Position numbers and translations under genes: made by a program
Shown: one piece after another, positions 38,703 to 47,714 of the stretch
How the letters are laid out: each line of letters starts with the position of its first letter
How positions within the stretch are numbered: the first letter of the stretch is position 1
Notes under the pieces: generated by a model
The model's input: the letters and a program-made list of their open reading frames with translations, nothing else
Database searches by the model: none
Told to the model about the DNA's origin: nothing
DNA from: Alphaproteobacteria bacterium LSUCC0684
GTDB lineage: Bacteria; Pseudomonadota; Alphaproteobacteria; Puniceispirillales; UBA1172
Reading direction: 5' to 3'
Assembly (NCBI GenBank): GCA_041228335.1
Contig: CP166130.1
Location: forward strand, 1,698,638-1,762,637
Length of the DNA stretch: 64,000 nucleotides

Positions 38703-39605
38703 ATGCAGGTCAGTACAAAAGTATTTAACGATCAGGCTCTTGCTCGCTTTGGTGAAGCATCCAAAGAGATACAGAATGTTCAGGCCAGAATAGCCACGGG
38801 CAAAAATCTGCTGCGCGCATCGGATGATCCCGTGGCTGCTGTGGAAATATCTTTCGCCAAGGACAAGCAGAAAACGCTGCTGCGATTTCAGGATAATATC
38901 GCGCGCGTGAAGGACCGACTTGAACTGACCGAAATTTCCATGACAGAAATGCAGAATATCCTGACGCGAATTTACGAACTTACCATTCAAGCCAAAAATG
39001 ACACATACAGCACCGCCGACCGTGAGGCCATACGGCAGGAAATACTCACCCTGAAAGACATGATGGTCACTCTGGGCAATACACAAGACTCTAATGGAGA
39101 CGCCATATTCGCCGGCTACAAATCTGATGTAATACCATTCAAGGAAAATGAGCAGGGTGTAGTTCAGTTTTTTGGTGATCAGGGTGTAGCTCGCCTGCAG
39201 ATATCTGAAACCCTGATGGCCGCCACTGCCATCAACGGCGTTGACGCTTTCATGCGAGTCAACACAGAGACCGGGTACAAAGATGTTTTCTCCATTGTCG
39301 ACGGTATCATCGACAATATGGGGGATATAAGCACGAACACCACCATCATTGGTGAAATCAAATCCAGCCTGAGCCATTTCAGTAACAAACTTACAGAAGT
39401 CGGCTCCCTCATCAATCTTGCAGACCTGCAGAATGATACGATCGAAAAAAGGCGTATGCTGGTGACCGAAGATCTCTCTGAACTGGCAGATGCCGATCTG
39501 AGCCAGCTAGTTACCACGCTGCAGTCTCTCTTGCTTAACCGTGATGCTTCCCAGCAGAGCTTTGCCCTGATTGGCCAGCAAAGCCTGTTCGATTATTTGA
39601 GATGA
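38703..39605 (+). CDS. flgL: Hook-associated protein 3 FlgL
   Basis: A 300-residue HAP3. It has flagellin-like ends: VQARIATGKNLLRASDDPVA near the N-terminus and LNRDASQQSFALIGQQSLFD at the C-terminus. It is of ordinary size, unlike FlgK and FlgE. It is the last gene of the flgG operon. No T-tailed terminator follows. The next rightward gene has its own sigma-54 promoter. Confidence 0.92.
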   Translation: MQVSTKVFNDQALARFGEASKEIQNVQARIATGKNLLRASDDPVAAVEISFAKDKQKTLLRFQDNIARVKDRLELTEISMTEMQNILTRIYELTIQAKNDTYSTADREAIRQEILTLKDMMVTLGNTQDSNGDAIFAGYKSDVIPFKENEQGVVQFFGDQGVARLQISETLMAATAINGVDAFMRVNTETGYKDVFSIVDGIIDNMGDISTNTTIIGEIKSSLSHFSNKLTEVGSLINLADLQNDTIEKRRMLVTEDLSELADADLSQLVTTLQSLLLNRDASQQSFALIGQQSLFDYLR

Positions 39606-39637
39606 TATCTAAACCGCTGATAGTAATGATTACGCGA

Positions 39638-39653
39638 TGGCACGGAAATTGCA
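39638..39653 (+). promoter_or_regulatory. Sigma-54 promoter for the sulfotransferase gene
   Basis: TGGCAC-GGAAA-TTGCA, a perfect -24/-12 pair. The start would be near 39665, leaving a 126-base leader before the ATG at 39791. It places the sulfotransferase under the same sigma factor as the hook genes. Confidence 0.85.
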
Positions 39654-39790
39654 AAAAACTACTTCTACTCTAGATACGGTAAATGCGCCCAATCAGGGAC
39701 TACGCCAGCAATCTTAGCGGATTTGGCCTCCGAATTTCCAAGCCGAAAACTTAAACAATCAAAAGAAATCTGCCTAAGGAGACATATAAA

Positions 39791-40555
39791 ATGAAAGATA
39801 CGTTCTTTGATAGAAATATTAATTTTTATGACTGGATACTTAGAAAGGATATAACGACACATGATGTCAATCGGAATATCGCAATTGTATCGACGCCTAG
39901 ATCGGGATCAACATTTTTTTGTGATGTGATTAATCAATCACAACGATTTGGTATCGCCGCGGAATGGTTTGGACCAAAACAAATAAGTGCATTTTGCACG
40001 CATACAGGTCGTGATTTCGAAAACTTCGACCTACAGGAATATGTGGACATCATATATAAACGATCTGCAAGCAATGGTACGTTCTCAGCAAATTTTCACG
40101 TCAATCACTGGGAGTTTTGGAAAAAAAGGGGTGTCGATCTCCTGAATATAGGCTGGGAAAAAATCGTATTTATAGATCGAAAAGATAAATTCTCTCAAGC
40201 AAGATCTCTCGCAACTGCAGAAAAAACCGGTTCTTGGCGAAGTATTGACGCCCCGATAGGAGATGACACATCAACTATTATAGATGTCTTGGGAGCGTTA
40301 CAAAGGCTTTATCGATGGGAAAAGACCTACATAACCTCAATTAAGCCAAGCGTCGCAGAAACTTTTTATTATGATGAATTCACAGGAAAGAATTTTAGTG
40401 AATCCTTTCATCGCTTTGCCAATACAGTAGAAGAGAAAATAGAGGGCATTATTTTTCAAAAGCCCGAACGTCTAAGCAAACAATCACACATGAATAAGAA
40501 TATTGAAACCGGTGAATTTGTGGCTTGGTTAAAGCAAATAAACCAAGATTCCTAA
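39791..40555 (+). CDS. Stf0-type sulfotransferase
   Basis: A 254-residue protein. STPRSGSTFF (residues ~34-43) is the 5'-phosphosulfate-binding loop for PAPS. FIDRKDKFSQARSLATAEKT contains the Stf0-like 3'-phosphate-binding segment, and RWEKTY lies further on. Stf0 family members move sulfate from PAPS to sugars such as trehalose. The gene is AT-rich and sits behind a perfect sigma-54 promoter between flgL and fliC. I infer that it sulfates a flagellar component or attached glycan. The Shine-Dalgarno sequence is AAGGAGA. Confidence 0.8.
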   Translation: MKDTFFDRNINFYDWILRKDITTHDVNRNIAIVSTPRSGSTFFCDVINQSQRFGIAAEWFGPKQISAFCTHTGRDFENFDLQEYVDIIYKRSASNGTFSANFHVNHWEFWKKRGVDLLNIGWEKIVFIDRKDKFSQARSLATAEKTGSWRSIDAPIGDDTSTIIDVLGALQRLYRWEKTYITSIKPSVAETFYYDEFTGKNFSESFHRFANTVEEKIEGIIFQKPERLSKQSHMNKNIETGEFVAWLKQINQDS

Positions 40556-40753
40556 ATGCTACACGTCCCCTGCATTTGTATTTGCATTGTCATGGATATT
40601 TGGAAATATCAATTTCAGCTGGTGAACCTGGGCAACCACCACCCAGTAAAGAATTTTCATTCAATGGTCTTCTTGACGAAGCTTAATCATACCATAAAGA
40701 ATATAAGCTACTTAACCTATAGTTAAGCTGGATACAAAATCAATAAACTAACC
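40556..40753. other. AT-rich convergent intergenic region
   Basis: This 198-bp gap separates the converging sulfotransferase and LicD-like genes. It holds short hairpins (ATATTTGGAAATAT near 40600; CTTAAC/GTTAAG around 40713-40730) but no GC-rich, T-tailed terminator and no gene. Confidence 0.4.
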
Positions 40754-42277
40754 CTAAACAGCGACACTCTCCAAAATTAATAGAAATTTACTGAAAGTTT
40801 CCTCAGATGGCTGAAACTCTTTTTGAACACTTCTTCTGATACACTTAATCAACGCATTACCTTTTTCGAGCGACCCGCCCTTTTGAATGAGATCGATCAT
40901 TTCATGACGCGCAACAAATCCAAATAACGCTTCGTTTTGTTTAACGAGAGCAGGTGATTGAAGTTTTACAAAGTAGAATGGGTCCGGAATATTCCAAGTC
41001 GAACCATAATTTTCACTTAACATTTTTTCATAATTACTTGGAATAAAATAATTATTGCCCATAAAACTCCGTGAAATCAAATCAAATTTCGAAAATTTAT
41101 AGTTAATTGTATACCCTATACGACTATCAATTCCATGCAAAAAATGATCGTCCCGATCATGAAAAAAGAATATGTCAAAGTCAAAACCTGTATCTTTGTG
41201 CCGAACCGGCAGGAGAAAGAGTTTGTTGCCACGCAAATCTTTTGTGGAAAAATTGAACTCCCCCGACTTCAAAAGAGCGGCCGCAACATCATATTGGCTC
41301 TCCCACCCAAATATGCCGATGTCAAAGTCCTTATCGTGATTGAATATCCGACCCTCCCGAACACAACCAAGCAAAGTACCAGAAATCAAAAAAGGTTGTA
41401 AGCCAGCGGCAACAAGAACATCATTAACACGACGGAGGGAATACTCTGCGATTTCACGAGAAAATTCTGAAACTCCTACGTTTGGAGAAACGTAAGGCAA
41501 CATGCAATCAGCAGAACTTATCGCGGCATTAAAATCACCAGAACTTAAAGAGCGCCTCATCGATATTGAATAGTTAACAAGTTTGTCTTTTACGTTGTGA
41601 TTTTTTATTATTTTTTCTGCTTCAGCAAGACCACCATTTTGAGCAACCAAAAGAGCCATGCATGCATATAGAAAATTTTTATTATTCGCATCACTAAAGC
41701 ATACCGACTGAGCAATTATTTGACAATAACTCGCCCAACGATCAAGATCTATGTTTGCAGAAAGACGATCAGAAAAAGTTGCTGAAAACCTAGCAAGAGA
41801 AACAAGGAAATTTGCAAGAAATTCGCGTTCCACACCAGATGAAGCGGAATAAATGTTATTAACTAAATCCTGCCTATTATTTAGAGCCGCAAACTTTATA
41901 AGTTGCAATCTACAATATATCGATATTTCCATCAACTCAGATCGGCAGACTTTTCGCTGATTGAAAAATAAATCCAAGCAAACGCTTAAGTCTTTCGGCA
42001 AATCTCCGGTGTCATTAATCGGGGAATTTGCGTTATACAAAAGAATTTCAAGAGCAGCCGCATTTCGGCTTTCCGGATATTCGGAAACTGCATCGATAAT
42101 TTTTGCAATCTTTTCTCGCTCACGCACGATTGATAAGATGCTTGTAAACTTAATTAACTGAATTGGATCCTTTAAAATTGGATGCGATGGAAGATCTTTT
42201 AAGTTTATCGGGTTTCTCGAAGTATTCCTGATAAAATCTATATCTTGTTCCGTAATCGCTCCATTCTTAAGTTTCAT
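40754..42277 (-). CDS. LicD/fukutin-like phosphotransferase with helical N-terminal region
   Basis: A 507-residue protein. Residues from about 285 on resemble LicD-family nucleotidyltransferase-fold enzymes: ISGTLLGCVREGRIFNHDKD then FDIGIF, and a later FDFDIFFFHDRDD. They transfer phosphocholine, phosphoribitol or phosphoglycerol from a CDP carrier to a glycan. The first ~280 residues are helical, perhaps TPR-like. The gene starts 8 bases after the cytidylyltransferase stop, which suggests that it uses that enzyme's product. The acceptor is not known; flagellin or a flagellar glycan is inferred from position. Confidence 0.7.
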   Translation of the reverse strand: MKLKNGAITEQDIDFIRNTSRNPINLKDLPSHPILKDPIQLIKFTSILSIVREREKIAKIIDAVSEYPESRNAAALEILLYNANSPINDTGDLPKDLSVCLDLFFNQRKVCRSELMEISIYCRLQLIKFAALNNRQDLVNNIYSASSGVEREFLANFLVSLARFSATFSDRLSANIDLDRWASYCQIIAQSVCFSDANNKNFLYACMALLVAQNGGLAEAEKIIKNHNVKDKLVNYSISMRRSLSSGDFNAAISSADCMLPYVSPNVGVSEFSREIAEYSLRRVNDVLVAAGLQPFLISGTLLGCVREGRIFNHDKDFDIGIFGWESQYDVAAALLKSGEFNFSTKDLRGNKLFLLPVRHKDTGFDFDIFFFHDRDDHFLHGIDSRIGYTINYKFSKFDLISRSFMGNNYFIPSNYEKMLSENYGSTWNIPDPFYFVKLQSPALVKQNEALFGFVARHEMIDLIQKGGSLEKGNALIKCIRRSVQKEFQPSEETFSKFLLILESVAV

Positions 42278-42285
42278 TTTCTCAC

Positions 42286-42696
42286 CTAGATTATCAATTT
42301 TTCCTGTTGCGAATTGGCTAACCTGGCCTTAAGCAGCGTCGTTGATATGCCAACCGTTCGAGGCAAATATTTCACCTCACAAATATCTTTCAACCAATCA
42401 AATTTTCCCCTCCAGTCATCACCCATAACAAAAAGATCGATATTAAACCTTTTTACGTCGATTACCTTCTGCTGAAAAGAATTTTCAGGGAAAACATGCG
42501 CATTTGGGACATGCAATCGGACGTCATTTGCCCTTGTAGAAAATTTATTACACGATGTCTTTCCCTTTTCCATGTTAAAGCTATCTGTGGATACGCCGAC
42601 AAAAAGATTGTTGCACATTTCGTTCGCGCGAGTAAGGATCCGCTCGTGGCCATAATGAAAGAGATCAAAGGTGCCATATGTCAGTACGTTTGTCAT
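42286..42696 (-). CDS. Glycerol-3-phosphate cytidylyltransferase (TagD/TarD type)
   Basis: A 136-residue cytidylyltransferase. The nucleotide-binding HYGH is within YGTFDLFHYGHERIL, the substrate motif is VMGDDWRGKFDWLKD, and the closing motif is PRTVGISTT. These match the Bacillus TagD/TarD glycerol-3-phosphate enzyme closely and differ from choline-phosphate types. It would make CDP-glycerol from CTP and glycerol-3-phosphate. It lies downstream of fliC, separated by a perfect hairpin, with a strong GAGGAGGG Shine-Dalgarno sequence. The partner LicD-like gene follows. Confidence 0.85.
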   Translation of the reverse strand: MTNVLTYGTFDLFHYGHERILTRANEMCNNLFVGVSTDSFNMEKGKTSCNKFSTRANDVRLHVPNAHVFPENSFQQKVIDVKRFNIDLFVMGDDWRGKFDWLKDICEVKYLPRTVGISTTLLKARLANSQQEKLII

Positions 42697-42716
42697 AATA
42701 CCCTCCTCAAAGAGAG

Positions 42717-42742
42717 TGGGCGGTAGATTTTTCTACCGCCCA
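42717..42742 (-). terminator. Perfect 11-bp hairpin between fliC and the cytidylyltransferase
   Basis: TGGGCGGTAGA pairs perfectly with TCTACCGCCCA around a TTTT loop. On the minus (coding) strand no T-run follows, so it may be a partial terminator or an mRNA 3'-end stabiliser for fliC that lets a minority of transcripts continue into the decoration genes. Confidence 0.7.
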
Positions 42743-42751
42743 TTAACTTCT

Positions 42752-43591
42752 TTATCCCTGCAAGAGGGTTAGTGCAACCTGTTTAGATGCATTTGCCTGA
42801 GCAAGCATGGCCATCGATGCTTGCTGAAGAATTTGCGTCTTTGCAAGGTTCGTTGACTCTACCGCAAAATCGGCATCTTCAATCCGTGATCGGCCAGCAT
42901 CCAAATTGATCGTAATGTTGGTCAAATTTGATACTGTGTTGTCAAGTCTATTTGAATAAGCACCGAGGTTAGCTCGCTGTGTGTTTACTGAGGTGATTGC
43001 CGTATCAATTGCATCAATTGTGTTAAGTGCACTTGAATTGCTTGCCATCGTCAACGCATTTACACTAAGTGTAGAGGATGTCATTGAACCAATTGCAACG
43101 GTAATTGTGTCAGAACCTGAAGTTGTACCTGCTCCAACGTGGAAGGTGAAGGATCCAGATGTGCCACCGGTTGCGTCAAGCAGTTTGATACCAGCCCAAG
43201 TCGTGACATTGGCAATACGATCAATCTCGTTAACAAGCTCATCAACCTCAGCCTGCAGGTTAGTACGATCATCAGTTCCGTTAGTATCATTTGCAGCTTG
43301 AACTGCTAATTCACGCATGCGCTGAAGAATGTTCACAATTTCATTGTGTGCACCTTCAGCAGTGTCAATCAATGCCTGTGCGTCCATCGCATTGCGGATG
43401 GCTTGGTTCGTGCCACGAATTTCCGAGGTCAAACGTGAAGCAATCGCCACGCCTGCCGCATCATCAGCTGCAGCATTGATACGTTTGCCGGTTGAAAGCC
43501 GCTCCATCGAGGTTTCCATCGACTTGTTGACTGACGAAGCAGCCGCGGCAGCGCCGAGGGCGCCGATATTGGTGTTGATAACTAATGCCAT
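42752..43591 (-). CDS. fliC: Flagellin, short form
   Basis: A 279-residue flagellin. N-terminal NTNIGALGAAAAASSVNKSM and SASRLTS-like AIASRLTSEIRGTNQAIRNA are typical D0/D1, as is the C-terminal ESTNLAKTQILQQASMAMLA. The central variable domain is nearly absent, so the filament surface is simple. GGAGAG precedes the ATG. A hairpin lies just 3' of the gene, upstream of the CDP-glycerol genes. Confidence 0.94.
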   Translation of the reverse strand: MALVINTNIGALGAAAAASSVNKSMETSMERLSTGKRINAAADDAAGVAIASRLTSEIRGTNQAIRNAMDAQALIDTAEGAHNEIVNILQRMRELAVQAANDTNGTDDRTNLQAEVDELVNEIDRIANVTTWAGIKLLDATGGTSGSFTFHVGAGTTSGSDTITVAIGSMTSSTLSVNALTMASNSSALNTIDAIDTAITSVNTQRANLGAYSNRLDNTVSNLTNITINLDAGRSRIEDADFAVESTNLAKTQILQQASMAMLAQANASKQVALTLLQG

Positions 43592-43731: not shown

Positions 43732-44232
43732 ATGGTATTGATGATGTTTACACCAGGCTGGATTTTCGACATAGCAGTTGCACGAACCGCGAGTGAATTC
43801 CTGTCTGCCGACATTGGAATTGAAGCTTTTGCCAAGAAATATGCTGAGGGACTGGCCAAATACTACACCACTCCCATTGACGTCGCACTCTTCAGCGATA
43901 CAGCACAGACTATTCTGGAATTTCTGTCGGAAATCGAGGCTGGAGATAGGGCGGTTGAATATCTCAACGATTTCATATACTTCAGACTCTATAATGAAAA
44001 CACCAGCACCCCCCGCAAGATGAAACCCATGTTCGGCTCCATTGAAGATGGCGTCAAAACACAGGAATACAAACCTGAAGAGACGATCAAAGCCTTTCGT
44101 GCTTATATCTTTGGGCTGAGATCGAACGCCGTCCCTACTGCACCGGATGGCTGGCGGCTTGAAACCGACGATCATATTGACAAGCTCAAATCAATTATCG
44201 AGCGTCAGGTCAGCATGCTGGATATGTTCTGA
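43732..44232 (+). CDS. 166-residue protein of unknown function between fliC and fliD
   Basis: A mostly helical, slightly acidic protein starting MVLMMFTPGWIF. It is not FlaF, FlbT or FlaG by any motif I know. It lies back-to-back with flagellin and converges with fliD, so a flagellin-related regulatory or chaperone role is possible. Several ATGs cluster at the start (43732, 43741, 43744), so the exact N-terminus is uncertain. A minus-strand frame across it was judged a shadow. Confidence 0.6.
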   Translation: MVLMMFTPGWIFDIAVARTASEFLSADIGIEAFAKKYAEGLAKYYTTPIDVALFSDTAQTILEFLSEIEAGDRAVEYLNDFIYFRLYNENTSTPRKMKPMFGSIEDGVKTQEYKPEETIKAFRAYIFGLRSNAVPTAPDGWRLETDDHIDKLKSIIERQVSMLDMF

Positions 44233-45995: not shown

Positions 45996-47714
45996 ATGTC
46001 GCCATCATCATCCGGTCATCTCATGCCAGCATCACGGCTGGCGCCGTTTTTTGCCCTTCTGGTGGGGATCGGGGTCGCCTTCGGCATCATGATGGCGATC
46101 GTGACGAACGGATTTGTTCTCGGTGTCCGGTCGCTCACCAGCATACGGGAGAATATGGGTTTTCTCGATTTTACGCTTGGCGGGGCCGAGCTGTCGCTTG
46201 CGCCGCTTCTGGCTATTCTGATCGCTGCCATGGCGATCCTGGTGATCCGGAAGGTCTTTGGTATCACGCGCTGGCACGGCCCGGCGGACAGTATCTATGC
46301 CGCGCACCGCACCGACAACGAACTTGATGTGAAGGCCGGGATGGGCTCGACGCTGGCGGCGTTTGTCTCGGCCAGCGGCGGCGCGTCGGTGGGTCAATAT
46401 GGCCCGCTGGTGCATTTCGGCGCCACGATCGGCAGTTTCCTCCGTCAGGTCACGGGCAACAGGCTAACAACGGATATTTTCATCGGCTGCGGGGTGGCCG
46501 GGGCGATTGCCGCCGGTTTCAACGCGCCAATAGCCGGCGTCGTCTTTGCCCATGAGGCAATCCTGCGGCATTTTTCGGTCCGTGCCGTCACCCCGATTGC
46601 CATTGCCAGCATCACCTCGGCGGGTATCAGCAAATGGATTTTCAGTGACAGCCACGCCTTTGCCGTGGTGCCGCCGATCTCGCTTGTCGAAACCCTGCCG
46701 GTTGCGCTGGTCGCCGGGCCAGTTTTCGGCATCATCGCGGTGCTTTACATGATGGCGATCCGGCGTTCAGCGCAACTCGCCGGCAGATCCGGCTATTCGC
46801 CAGCCGTACTGCTCCTGATTGCGGCGGTCCTGACAGGTCTGGTCGGGATGGTGCTGCCCGAAATTCTGGGGCTCGGCACCGGGGCGGTGCTCGACATGCT
46901 GAACATGAAACTGGCGCTGGCCATGCTGCTTGTCATCATGGTGGCGAAAACGGTCATGACGGCGCTATGTATTGGTTTCGGGCTTTTTGGCGGGCTGTTC
47001 TCCCCTGCCCTTTTCGTCGGGGCGGCGGCAGGGGGCAGTCTGCATCAGCTTCTCGGCGCGATCGGGATTACGGCAGGCGGGCCGGTGATGGTGGTCTGCG
47101 GCATGGCCGCGGTGGCAGGTGCGGTCATCGGCGCGCCGGTCTCCGCCATTCTCATCATGCTGGAAATGACCATGAGCTACAACTACGCGCTCGCCTCCAT
47201 GCTGAGCGTGGTGACGGCCGCGCTGATCAGCCAGTATCTTTACGGCCATTCCTTCTTTGACCGGCAGCTCCTCGATCGCGGCATCGATATCGCGCAAGGT
47301 CGCGGGCATCTGGAGATGATGGAGTTGTCGGTTGAGACCATCGTCGATCGGGAATTTCTTGCCGCCCGTCCCGATGAGACGAAAGATGCAATCCTGCCGC
47401 GGATGATCGAACAAGGTGTCAGCGAAGGATATGTGATAGATGGCAGCCGCTATGGGGGCAAATTCACCCTCAAGCAGCTGATCCCGCTTTCCGGCGGTGA
47501 GCGTATCGCAAGCGTGGCAGATCTCGAGGCCATCTCGATCAAGCATGATGCGTCGCTGATGCAGGCGATCGAGATTGCCAGTGACTTTGTTGGCGAGTCC
47601 ATCCCCGTCCTCAACCGGGAGACGGGCGAGATGATCGGCATCGTGACGGAAGGTGATATCTTCCAGCTGTATCTTAAGACCCAGTACACTATCATGGATC
47701 TGGAACATTCATGA
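45996..47714 (+). CDS. ClC-family chloride channel/transporter with C-terminal CBS region
   Basis: A 572-residue ClC protein with about 10-12 hydrophobic segments and a C-terminal CBS-type region (last ~150 residues, ending SIPVLNRETGEMIGIVTEGD). The family GREGP motif reads GQYGP, replacing the external gating Glu by Tyr. In FNAPIAGVVFAHEAI the position of the internal proton Glu appears to be Ala. So it may be an uncoupled channel rather than an H+/Cl- exchanger. It is embedded in the flagellar cluster between fliD and fliS with no clear functional link. Confidence 0.88.
   Translation: MSPSSSGHLMPASRLAPFFALLVGIGVAFGIMMAIVTNGFVLGVRSLTSIRENMGFLDFTLGGAELSLAPLLAILIAAMAILVIRKVFGITRWHGPADSIYAAHRTDNELDVKAGMGSTLAAFVSASGGASVGQYGPLVHFGATIGSFLRQVTGNRLTTDIFIGCGVAGAIAAGFNAPIAGVVFAHEAILRHFSVRAVTPIAIASITSAGISKWIFSDSHAFAVVPPISLVETLPVALVAGPVFGIIAVLYMMAIRRSAQLAGRSGYSPAVLLLIAAVLTGLVGMVLPEILGLGTGAVLDMLNMKLALAMLLVIMVAKTVMTALCIGFGLFGGLFSPALFVGAAAGGSLHQLLGAIGITAGGPVMVVCGMAAVAGAVIGAPVSAILIMLEMTMSYNYALASMLSVVTAALISQYLYGHSFFDRQLLDRGIDIAQGRGHLEMMELSVETIVDREFLAARPDETKDAILPRMIEQGVSEGYVIDGSRYGGKFTLKQLIPLSGGERIASVADLEAISIKHDASLMQAIEIASDFVGESIPVLNRETGEMIGIVTEGDIFQLYLKTQYTIMDLEHS

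Follow-up and report, generated by a model that had tools for sequence, protein, structure and literature searches.

A cytidylyltransferase, LicD and sulfotransferase island between flgL and fliC: a candidate flagellin-decorating module in an alphaproteobacterium

What are a sulfotransferase, a cytidylyltransferase and a LicD-family protein doing between two flagellar genes? These three genes occupy the gap between flgL and the flagellin gene fliC in a 64,000-nucleotide stretch of Alphaproteobacteria bacterium LSUCC0684 (contig CP166130.1, positions 1,698,638 to 1,762,637; the whole stretch is hereafter called the window), whose 2.70-Mb genome is a single contig. Because the same trio sits on a flagellar plasmid of Octadecabacter and because the 17 closest LicD relatives from a scan of 84,980 species all lie in flagellar loci, the link of the trio to the flagellum is strongly supported. 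We infer the donor, acceptor and product of its chemistry, and consider it likely that the island is a flagellin-decorating module, in which glycerol phosphate would be passed in the cytoplasm from cytidine diphosphate (CDP)-glycerol to flagellin or its glycan, with sulfation in addition.

The island between flgL and fliC

The island and its borders contain the following features, numbered from the first base of the window.

38703-39605, + strand: flgL, which bounds the variable gap opposite fliC (TIGR02550, 208.6 bits against a cut-off of 127; synteny in relatives)
39638-39653, + strand: sigma-54 (-24/-12) promoter-like site TGGCACGGAAATTGCA, an exact consensus match 137 bases upstream of stf0
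39791-40555, + strand: stf0-like sulfotransferase, 254 amino acids (PF09037, 33 bits against a cut-off of 22; PRSGST motif)
40754-42277, - strand: LicD-family protein, 507 amino acids (PF04991, 25.1 bits against a cut-off of 22.6)
40958-41485, - strand: LicD catalytic domain, residues 265-440, supported by model confidence (predicted local distance difference test, pLDDT) and a profile match to human fukutin-related protein (FKRP), a ribitol-phosphate transferase
41321-41335, - strand: D-x-D-x-D motif DKDFD, LicD residues 315-319, aligned with DYDVD of FKRP
42286-42696, - strand: TagD-type (glycerol-3-phosphate) cytidylyltransferase, 136 amino acids (CTP_transf_like, 62.3 bits against a cut-off of 21)
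42717-42742, - strand: strong RNA hairpin between fliC and tagD, stem of 10-11 pairs, fold z -3.9
42752-43591, - strand: fliC flagellin, 279 amino acids (Pfam flagellin N and C domains)

An earlier note, made from the letters alone, had described a low-GC island with these three enzymes between flgL and fliC, and this layout was borne out: all three reading frames are intact, lie in the gap and score above their Pfam cut-offs, and the guanine-cytosine (GC) content of the island is 38% against 55% for the window (flgL and fliC, 48% each). Third-position GC is 0.33 in stf0, 0.32 in licD and 0.46 in tagD, with flgL at 0.54; it is low in fliC (0.42) and fliD (0.46) too. The coordinates also agree with the note in putting tagD and licD just behind fliC on the same strand, 55 bases separating fliC from tagD and 8 bases tagD from licD. 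The hairpin in the first of these intervals is called terminator-like on both strands. Because it has no clear T run, it may let some transcripts pass while restraining or trimming most of them.

Is the island under flagellar control? The stf0 gene runs opposite to tagD-licD, downstream of the sigma-54 site, which proved to be the perfect match that the note had reported. Scanned with the consensus, the window holds 10 sites with at most one mismatch, compared with 2.1 expected from shuffles, and two of the 10 are exact. The exact site suggests that stf0 is under flagellar control. For tagD-licD, the wiring into the flagellar regulon that the note described depends on their position behind fliC and not on a separate promoter, since no GG-N10-GC site was found in the 140 bases upstream of fliC. 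In FliC itself, the central region (residues 141-195) is 40% serine plus threonine and is a likely target of decoration.

Flagellar relatives of the trio and their predicted activities

Does the trio accompany flagellin elsewhere? A search of 72,556 plasmid records matched six, among them pOA238_118 of Octadecabacter arcticus 238 (NC_020909.1; L189/L192), where flagellin, tagD-type, licD and stf0 genes follow one another on one strand. Identities to the window proteins are 73% for flagellin, 53% for TagD-type, 38% over 495 amino acids for LicD and 39% over 249 for Stf0 (PF09037, 37.7 bits), the aligned parts covering almost all of each protein; the plasmid record annotates licD and stf0 as hypothetical, and at E 1e-5 it is the only plasmid record with an Stf0 match. 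A hairpin of unrelated sequence again lies between flagellin and tagD (z -5.6). Flagellar genes are numerous on the plasmid, rpoN and two sigma-54 activators among them, and we take it to be the 118-kb pOAR118, reported to carry complete flagella gene clusters seemingly acquired by horizontal transfer (PMC3646047). That the proteins have diverged yet the four genes have been kept together speaks for function. Conservation of the trio beside fliC, which the note had proposed to look for in related genomes, was thus found on this plasmid, from a bacterium of another family, but not in the window's own order. With the window's genome counted, the LicD protein occurs in 1 of 61 relatives, in 1 of 136 order genomes by profile (43 of the 136 having a completeness of 90% or more and a contamination of 5% or less), in 4 of 385 class genomes and in 14 of 398 phylum genomes.

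A scan of 84,980 species with two short LicD motifs picked out 73 candidate stretches, among which were 21 relatives of LicD. Every one of the 17 closest (E 2e-34 or better) belongs to a flagellar locus: flagellin is present on the fetched stretch in 11, and flhA or hook genes are present in the other six. The four distant relatives (E 1e-20 to 4e-19) have no panel flagellar gene, and in two of them a gene for a PseC-like aminotransferase lies at a distance of about 9 kb. Homologues set consistently in capsule or lipopolysaccharide clusters, the pattern that the note had named as contrary to its proposal, were therefore not what emerged from the 17 closest, all of them flagellar, while the four distant ones do stand apart from flagellar genes. 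Both motifs are one letter off in Octadecabacter, so the scan would miss this closest of the relatives found and underestimates the spread of the branch. In the phylum sample, the best matches in 13 other genomes comprise two flagellar cases at the top (L080 and L081) and 11 without a panel flagellar gene. L110 is the same record as L081 (panel genes 100% identical); counting L080, L189 and the window, the distinct loci number 20.

A candidate CDP-polyol synthase gene adjoins licD in all 17 flagellar cases. Two loci, L100 and L101, have the TagD type; the other 15, L102-L116, have an IspD-dehydrogenase fusion, which runs off the contig end in L109 and L115. In L110, the fusion scores 166.6 bits for IspD and 128.4 bits for short-chain dehydrogenase; the top four solved matches of its first half are two enzymes named methylerythritol-phosphate cytidylyltransferase and two named ribitol-5-phosphate cytidylyltransferase (4jis, 6xhp), and the second half of the fusion matches dehydrogenases. 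By analogy, these fusions would make CDP-ribitol in a two-step reaction like that of Bcs1. The LicD tree follows the synthases: all 13 fusion-partnered proteins in it, with L106 counted among them, fall on one side of a branch supported at 97/99 (99/98 in another tree), and the window and Octadecabacter proteins group at 100/98, the TagD-partnered proteins forming the remainder of the tree, not demonstrated as a single clade. In two loci with no panel flagellar gene nearby, a LicD-like part and a cytidylyltransferase domain are joined in that order in one polypeptide (L084 9365-10906, 47.8 bits; L096 9251-10777, 56.5 bits). Because of the pairing, the split of the tree by synthase type and these fusions, the adjacent synthase most likely feeds the LicD enzyme. 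A flagellar locus of Hyphomicrobiales (L106 9083-13841) has synthases of both kinds: LicD, the IspD-dehydrogenase fusion, another LicD-like protein (20.2 bits, the cut-off being 22.6) and TagD stand in a row there, and this locus perhaps handles both ribitol and glycerol phosphate.

What kind of enzyme is LicD? All 15 sequences of alignment A3 match PF04991 (E up to 0.1), and D315, D317 and D319 are invariant among them. In the model of the window protein, block means of pLDDT are 82-97 over residues 271-500; prediction is poor before residue 230, residues 1-230 being mostly at 60 or less in a helical N-terminal half. The top solved matches of this model are all FKRP (Foldseek E 1.2e-5), with Z 15.6 and a root-mean-square deviation (rmsd) of 3.6 over 163 residues, compared with Z of at most 13.4 for antibiotic nucleotidyltransferases. 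The LicD protein of the Comamonadaceae locus L112, well modelled (pLDDT 89.5), matched FKRP at Z 16.3 and rmsd 2.8 over 157 residues. When PDB sequences were searched up to an E of 1 with a profile of seven LicD domains, FKRP was the single match (E 1e-6), and D-x-D-x-D was aligned. Thus, the structure prediction that the note had called for gives the LicD domain an FKRP-like nucleotidyltransferase fold.

The N-terminal half is helical and well predicted in the L112 model, for which Foldseek ranks tetratricopeptide repeat (TPR) proteins after FKRP. A profile of the LicD branch matches designed TPR proteins (E 2.2e-24), and only a few of the 15 members match a TPR family in Pfam, with weak E-values. 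By analogy to FlmG of Caulobacter, this suggests that the N-terminal half in the branch binds flagellin as the TPR domain of FlmG does. The window's LicD protein itself has no Pfam TPR match, and its profile comparison to the N-terminal halves of the branch gives 1.1% probability.

The cytidylyltransferase contains both motifs given in the note, VMGDDWRGKFD and PRTVGISTT, as well as HYGH and RTVGISTT, which fit the TagD/TarD signatures (H-x-G-H and R-T-x-G-I-S-T). Its nearest solved structures are the glycerol-3-phosphate cytidylyltransferases 1coz (E 1.5e-36) and 2b7l (E 1e-33), both aligned over residues 1-127, with an ethanolamine enzyme at 3.6e-8; the principal motif residues are invariant across the five TagD-type proteins compared. 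TagD-type matches occur in 161 of 385 class genomes, a count that we did not use as evidence; among the matches listed, only six, the window's own included, reach at least 45% identity over most of the protein.

For the sulfotransferase, a protein search of the genome returned the known stf0 alone; a family-based search missed even that gene and matched none of 14 controls. Comparison with solved structures gave no usable match, and weak Stf0 matches were found in 7 of 384 other class genomes. The genome has three matches to adenosine 5'-phosphosulfate kinase; therefore the sulfate donor 3'-phosphoadenosine 5'-phosphosulfate (PAPS) can be made. In L112 (12156-14925), the flagellar LicD gene and an IspD fusion are followed by an Stf0, 30% identical to the window's, and by a protein joining TPR to a GT41 domain.

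Proposed reactions, precedents and alternatives

How might the module work? Judged by its family, the TagD-type enzyme would combine cytidine triphosphate and glycerol 3-phosphate into CDP-glycerol. From fold, gene pairing and location, LicD is then predicted to use CDP-glycerol as donor and to load its glycerol phosphate, before export, onto a hydroxyl of flagellin or of a sugar that flagellin already carries, leaving a phosphodiester-linked glycerol; the acceptor may be protein or sugar. Less surely, the Stf0-type enzyme would use PAPS to sulfate either this decoration or a different position on flagellin. This work is probably cytoplasmic and precedes export, because none of the three proteins has a prominent signal or transmembrane stretch by hydropathy over 19 residues.

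Parts of this scheme have precedents. FlmG is a soluble cytoplasmic protein whose N-terminal TPR domain binds flagellin and whose C-terminal domain transfers the modifying group (PMC7591256), a division of labour that the LicD branch may share. The two differ in that FlmG handles pseudaminic acid with a glycosyltransferase head: in place of its C-terminal GT-B domain, the window protein ends in a LicD domain with CDP-glycerol as predicted donor, and a TPR region has support in the wider branch, but Pfam, the structural model and profile comparison did not show one in the window protein itself. Enterobacterial flag-2 loci of 235 strains contain tagD, which occurs there alongside tagB and ltaS, and teichoic-type units have been inferred in their flagellin glycan (PMC6993521). 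They share with the window a CDP-glycerol synthase gene inside a flagellar cluster and differ in using TagB/LtaS-type transferases instead of LicD; the section of that paper on these loci mentions neither a CDP-ribitol synthase nor a sulfotransferase. No TagB/TagF or LtaS domain was found in the three island proteins and five scanned neighbours, a search that did not extend to the rest of the genome. A Geobacillus flagellin island also carries tagD (PMC5109656). In Clostridioides difficile, genetics and mass spectrometry show that the flagellin phospho-glycan (Type A, cd0240-cd0244) requires a TagF-like enzyme (PMC10714395); cytidylyltransferase and phosphotransferase again sit in one flagellin glycan cluster, but there the transferring enzyme resembles TagF, with CDP-threonine proposed as donor for transfer to N-acetylglucosamine. 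The note had thought teichoic-type chemistry linked to flagella to be new, which goes too far in view of these reports.

The LicD pair beside flagellin also resembles a eukaryotic pathway, in which ISPD makes CDP-ribitol and FKTN and FKRP put ribitol phosphate on human alpha-dystroglycan (PMC4873967). An IspD-type synthase and a LicD-domain transferase recur together there, and the flagellar LicD domain is predicted to share the FKRP fold; the human pathway differs in its Golgi setting and its acceptor, and the window's synthase is TagD-type, with CDP-glycerol as predicted donor. In the capsule system of Haemophilus influenzae type b (Bcs1/Bcs3), Bcs1 reduces ribulose 5-phosphate and makes CDP-ribitol (PMC10299916). 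Going by that description, it fits the IspD-dehydrogenase architecture beside 15 flagellar LicD genes, although its product is a capsule polymer and not part of flagella. In an open-access literature of 5.39 million papers, outside which most subscription papers fall, we found no description of a LicD protein beside flagellin, one Campylobacter genome paper matching the terms only. Judged by title or start of abstract, none of the open-access matches listed concerned flagellin modified with phosphoglycerol, and none concerned flagellin modified with ribitol phosphate; for flagellin, sulfotransferase and tetratricopeptide together, none was on flagellin modification by title. Thus, teichoic-type units on flagella are already in print, and the LicD version beside flagellin is the apparent novelty within that literature.

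Several observations weigh against a flagellin-decorating module. The TagD/TarD identity given in the note, which the motifs and the full-length alignment to solved members uphold, falls short on the NCBI equivalog for glycerol-3-phosphate cytidylyltransferase (TIGR01518, 126.1 bits, under the cut-off of 165.4), and for this reason we call the protein TagD-type and not TagD. LicD has a peak 19-residue hydropathy of 1.74, in the catalytic core at residues 288-306 (FlhA control, 3.05), and the usual membrane threshold is a mean of about 1.6. Of the 20 distinct loci with flagellar LicD genes, only 3 (the window, L189 and L112) have an Stf0 as well. The scan motifs were derived from three flagellar proteins and favour that branch, selection not being by context. 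LicD is an accessory gene in its order. The window and Octadecabacter loci are not wholly independent witnesses, because their flagellar clusters are of one type (FlhA 63% identical), and Octadecabacter arcticus 238 is described as non-motile (PMC3646047). Finally, pairs of a TagD-type and a LicD gene occur at non-flagellar sites too, in L091, L093, L095, L097 and on Paracoccus and Phaeobacter plasmids with capsule genes, so that the pairing is no proof of a flagellin acceptor.

Could the trio serve the envelope instead? If it decorated lipopolysaccharide, capsule or another envelope component, lipids included, its flagellar siting would be accidental. The distant pairs just listed, the pse-like genes near the non-flagellar L094 and the sole NCBI match of the window's LicD, a lipid cholinephosphotransferase model reached at 33.8 of 225 bits, would fit such a role. 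We nevertheless regard it as unlikely: the window's own LicD branch is flagellar in its 17 closest cases and on the Octadecabacter plasmid, and the scanned neighbours from flgL to the chloride-channel gene are flagellar or without assigned family in Pfam. On plasmids, further TagD matches off flagella came from Sulfitobacter, with no LicD on the stretch shown, and from Sinorhizobium, beside a LicD gene.

A different alternative keeps flagellin as acceptor and changes the donor to another CDP-alcohol, such as a CDP-amino-alcohol or a CDP-threonine-like compound. The shortfall against the glycerol-3-phosphate cytidylyltransferase model and the C. difficile glycan (PMC10714395) lend it some substance, but since the nearest solved structures are by far glycerol-3-phosphate cytidylyltransferases and the five proteins compared do not vary at the main motif positions, we give it a rather low probability. 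Lastly, foreign low-GC genes might have landed by chance in a variable gap, leaving a recent island without function, as the drop from 55% to 38% GC and the absence of LicD from the other genomes of the order could imply. Intact frames, 38-53% conservation beside flagellin on another replicon and the exact sigma-54 site upstream of stf0 make this very improbable. Decoration of flagellin with glycerol phosphate and perhaps sulfate is the account that we retain.

What would such a decoration mean? Flagellar chemistry would gain phosphodiester-linked polyols, perhaps with sulfate, made by fukutin-type enzymes, and bacteria would offer small genetic models in which the ISPD-FKRP reaction takes place on a protein that is plentiful and simple to purify. 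The decoration of a filament can alter its charge, the adsorption of phages and the way in which hosts and grazers recognise it.

Candidate filament-modifying genes and neighbours in relatives

Is the island one of many? We propose, tentatively and as something short of probable, that the LicD branch, each member with its own CDP-glycerol or CDP-ribitol synthase, is a bacterial counterpart of ISPD-FKRP that decorates the flagellin of Alpha- and Betaproteobacteria with polyol phosphate, and that it is one plug-in among many filament-modifying enzymes, mostly fused to TPR, which diversify the filament surface in the window's order. A collection of enzymes around flagellin genes would then supply a mechanism for filament variation. 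The plug-in idea is weakened by the fliC-flgL gap itself, which is empty in 6 of the 10 order relatives that have fliC and flgL as neighbours on the fetched stretch (L144, L146, L156, L162, L165, L166). The other four have TPR proteins there, whose heads are a sulfotransferase in L141 and L142, GDSL-like and methyltransferase-like in L145 (both under the Pfam cut-off), and GT9-like, just under the cut-off, in L099, where an unrecognised gene shares the gap. A fixed cassette site at this gap is thus only partly borne out.

Among 24 TPR proteins scanned near flagellins, the heads are GT41 (five), methyltransferase (four, one under the cut-off), sulfotransferase (three), 2-oxoglutarate-Fe(II) oxygenase (two), GT9-like (two, one under the cut-off) and GDSL-like (one, under the cut-off), with none recognised in seven. 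A search with five query proteins for TPR genes of at least 300 amino acids gave 24 in 27 flagellin stretches, of which 14 have at least one, compared with a single gene in the 20 control stretches; all but three of the 24 belong to the proteins scanned for heads. With the four query-supplying stretches removed, such genes are present in 10 of 23 flagellin stretches and in 1 of the 20 controls (Fisher p 0.005), the control being a small set of 20 hand-chosen stretches, some sharing contigs, and the stretches of related genomes not being independent. In four order relatives (L160, L161, L162, L149), up to four TPR-fused proteins with GT41, methyltransferase, oxygenase and sulfotransferase heads lie beside flagellins. 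Far from the flagellar cluster, at about 1.24 Mb, are two convergent TPR-GT41 genes (G000 C1:1240624-1245573; L125 8625-13574), whose products could add a first sugar to flagellin. By eye, transposase-like genes flank this pair on both sides.

Did flagellin travel with the trio? By identity, the Octadecabacter flagellin is the closest to the window's (74% in tree columns). The tree, however, places the window's fliC next to two flagellins from its own family, with weak support (81/79), and co-transfer was not established. A phage search gave no match, and viral contigs gave two weak ones.

Between fliC and fliD lies a gene for a 166-amino-acid protein (43732-44232, + strand) without a Pfam or NCBIfam family, perhaps a filament chaperone or regulator. 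Its homologues, 33-65% identical, are found near flagellin in the relatives L005-L007, L013, L014, L022, L028 and L029. On the other side of fliD, the window has a ClC chloride-channel gene with a CBS domain (45996-47714, + strand), and a ClC gene likewise adjoins fliD in the three relatives scanned (L141 3325-5055, L144 2598-4322, L145 4278-6017). The Octadecabacter plasmid has an annotated chloride channel beside fliD too (L192 42169-43911); together with FlhA, rpoN and the two activators, this likeness of the flagellar clusters suggests transfer between the lineages.

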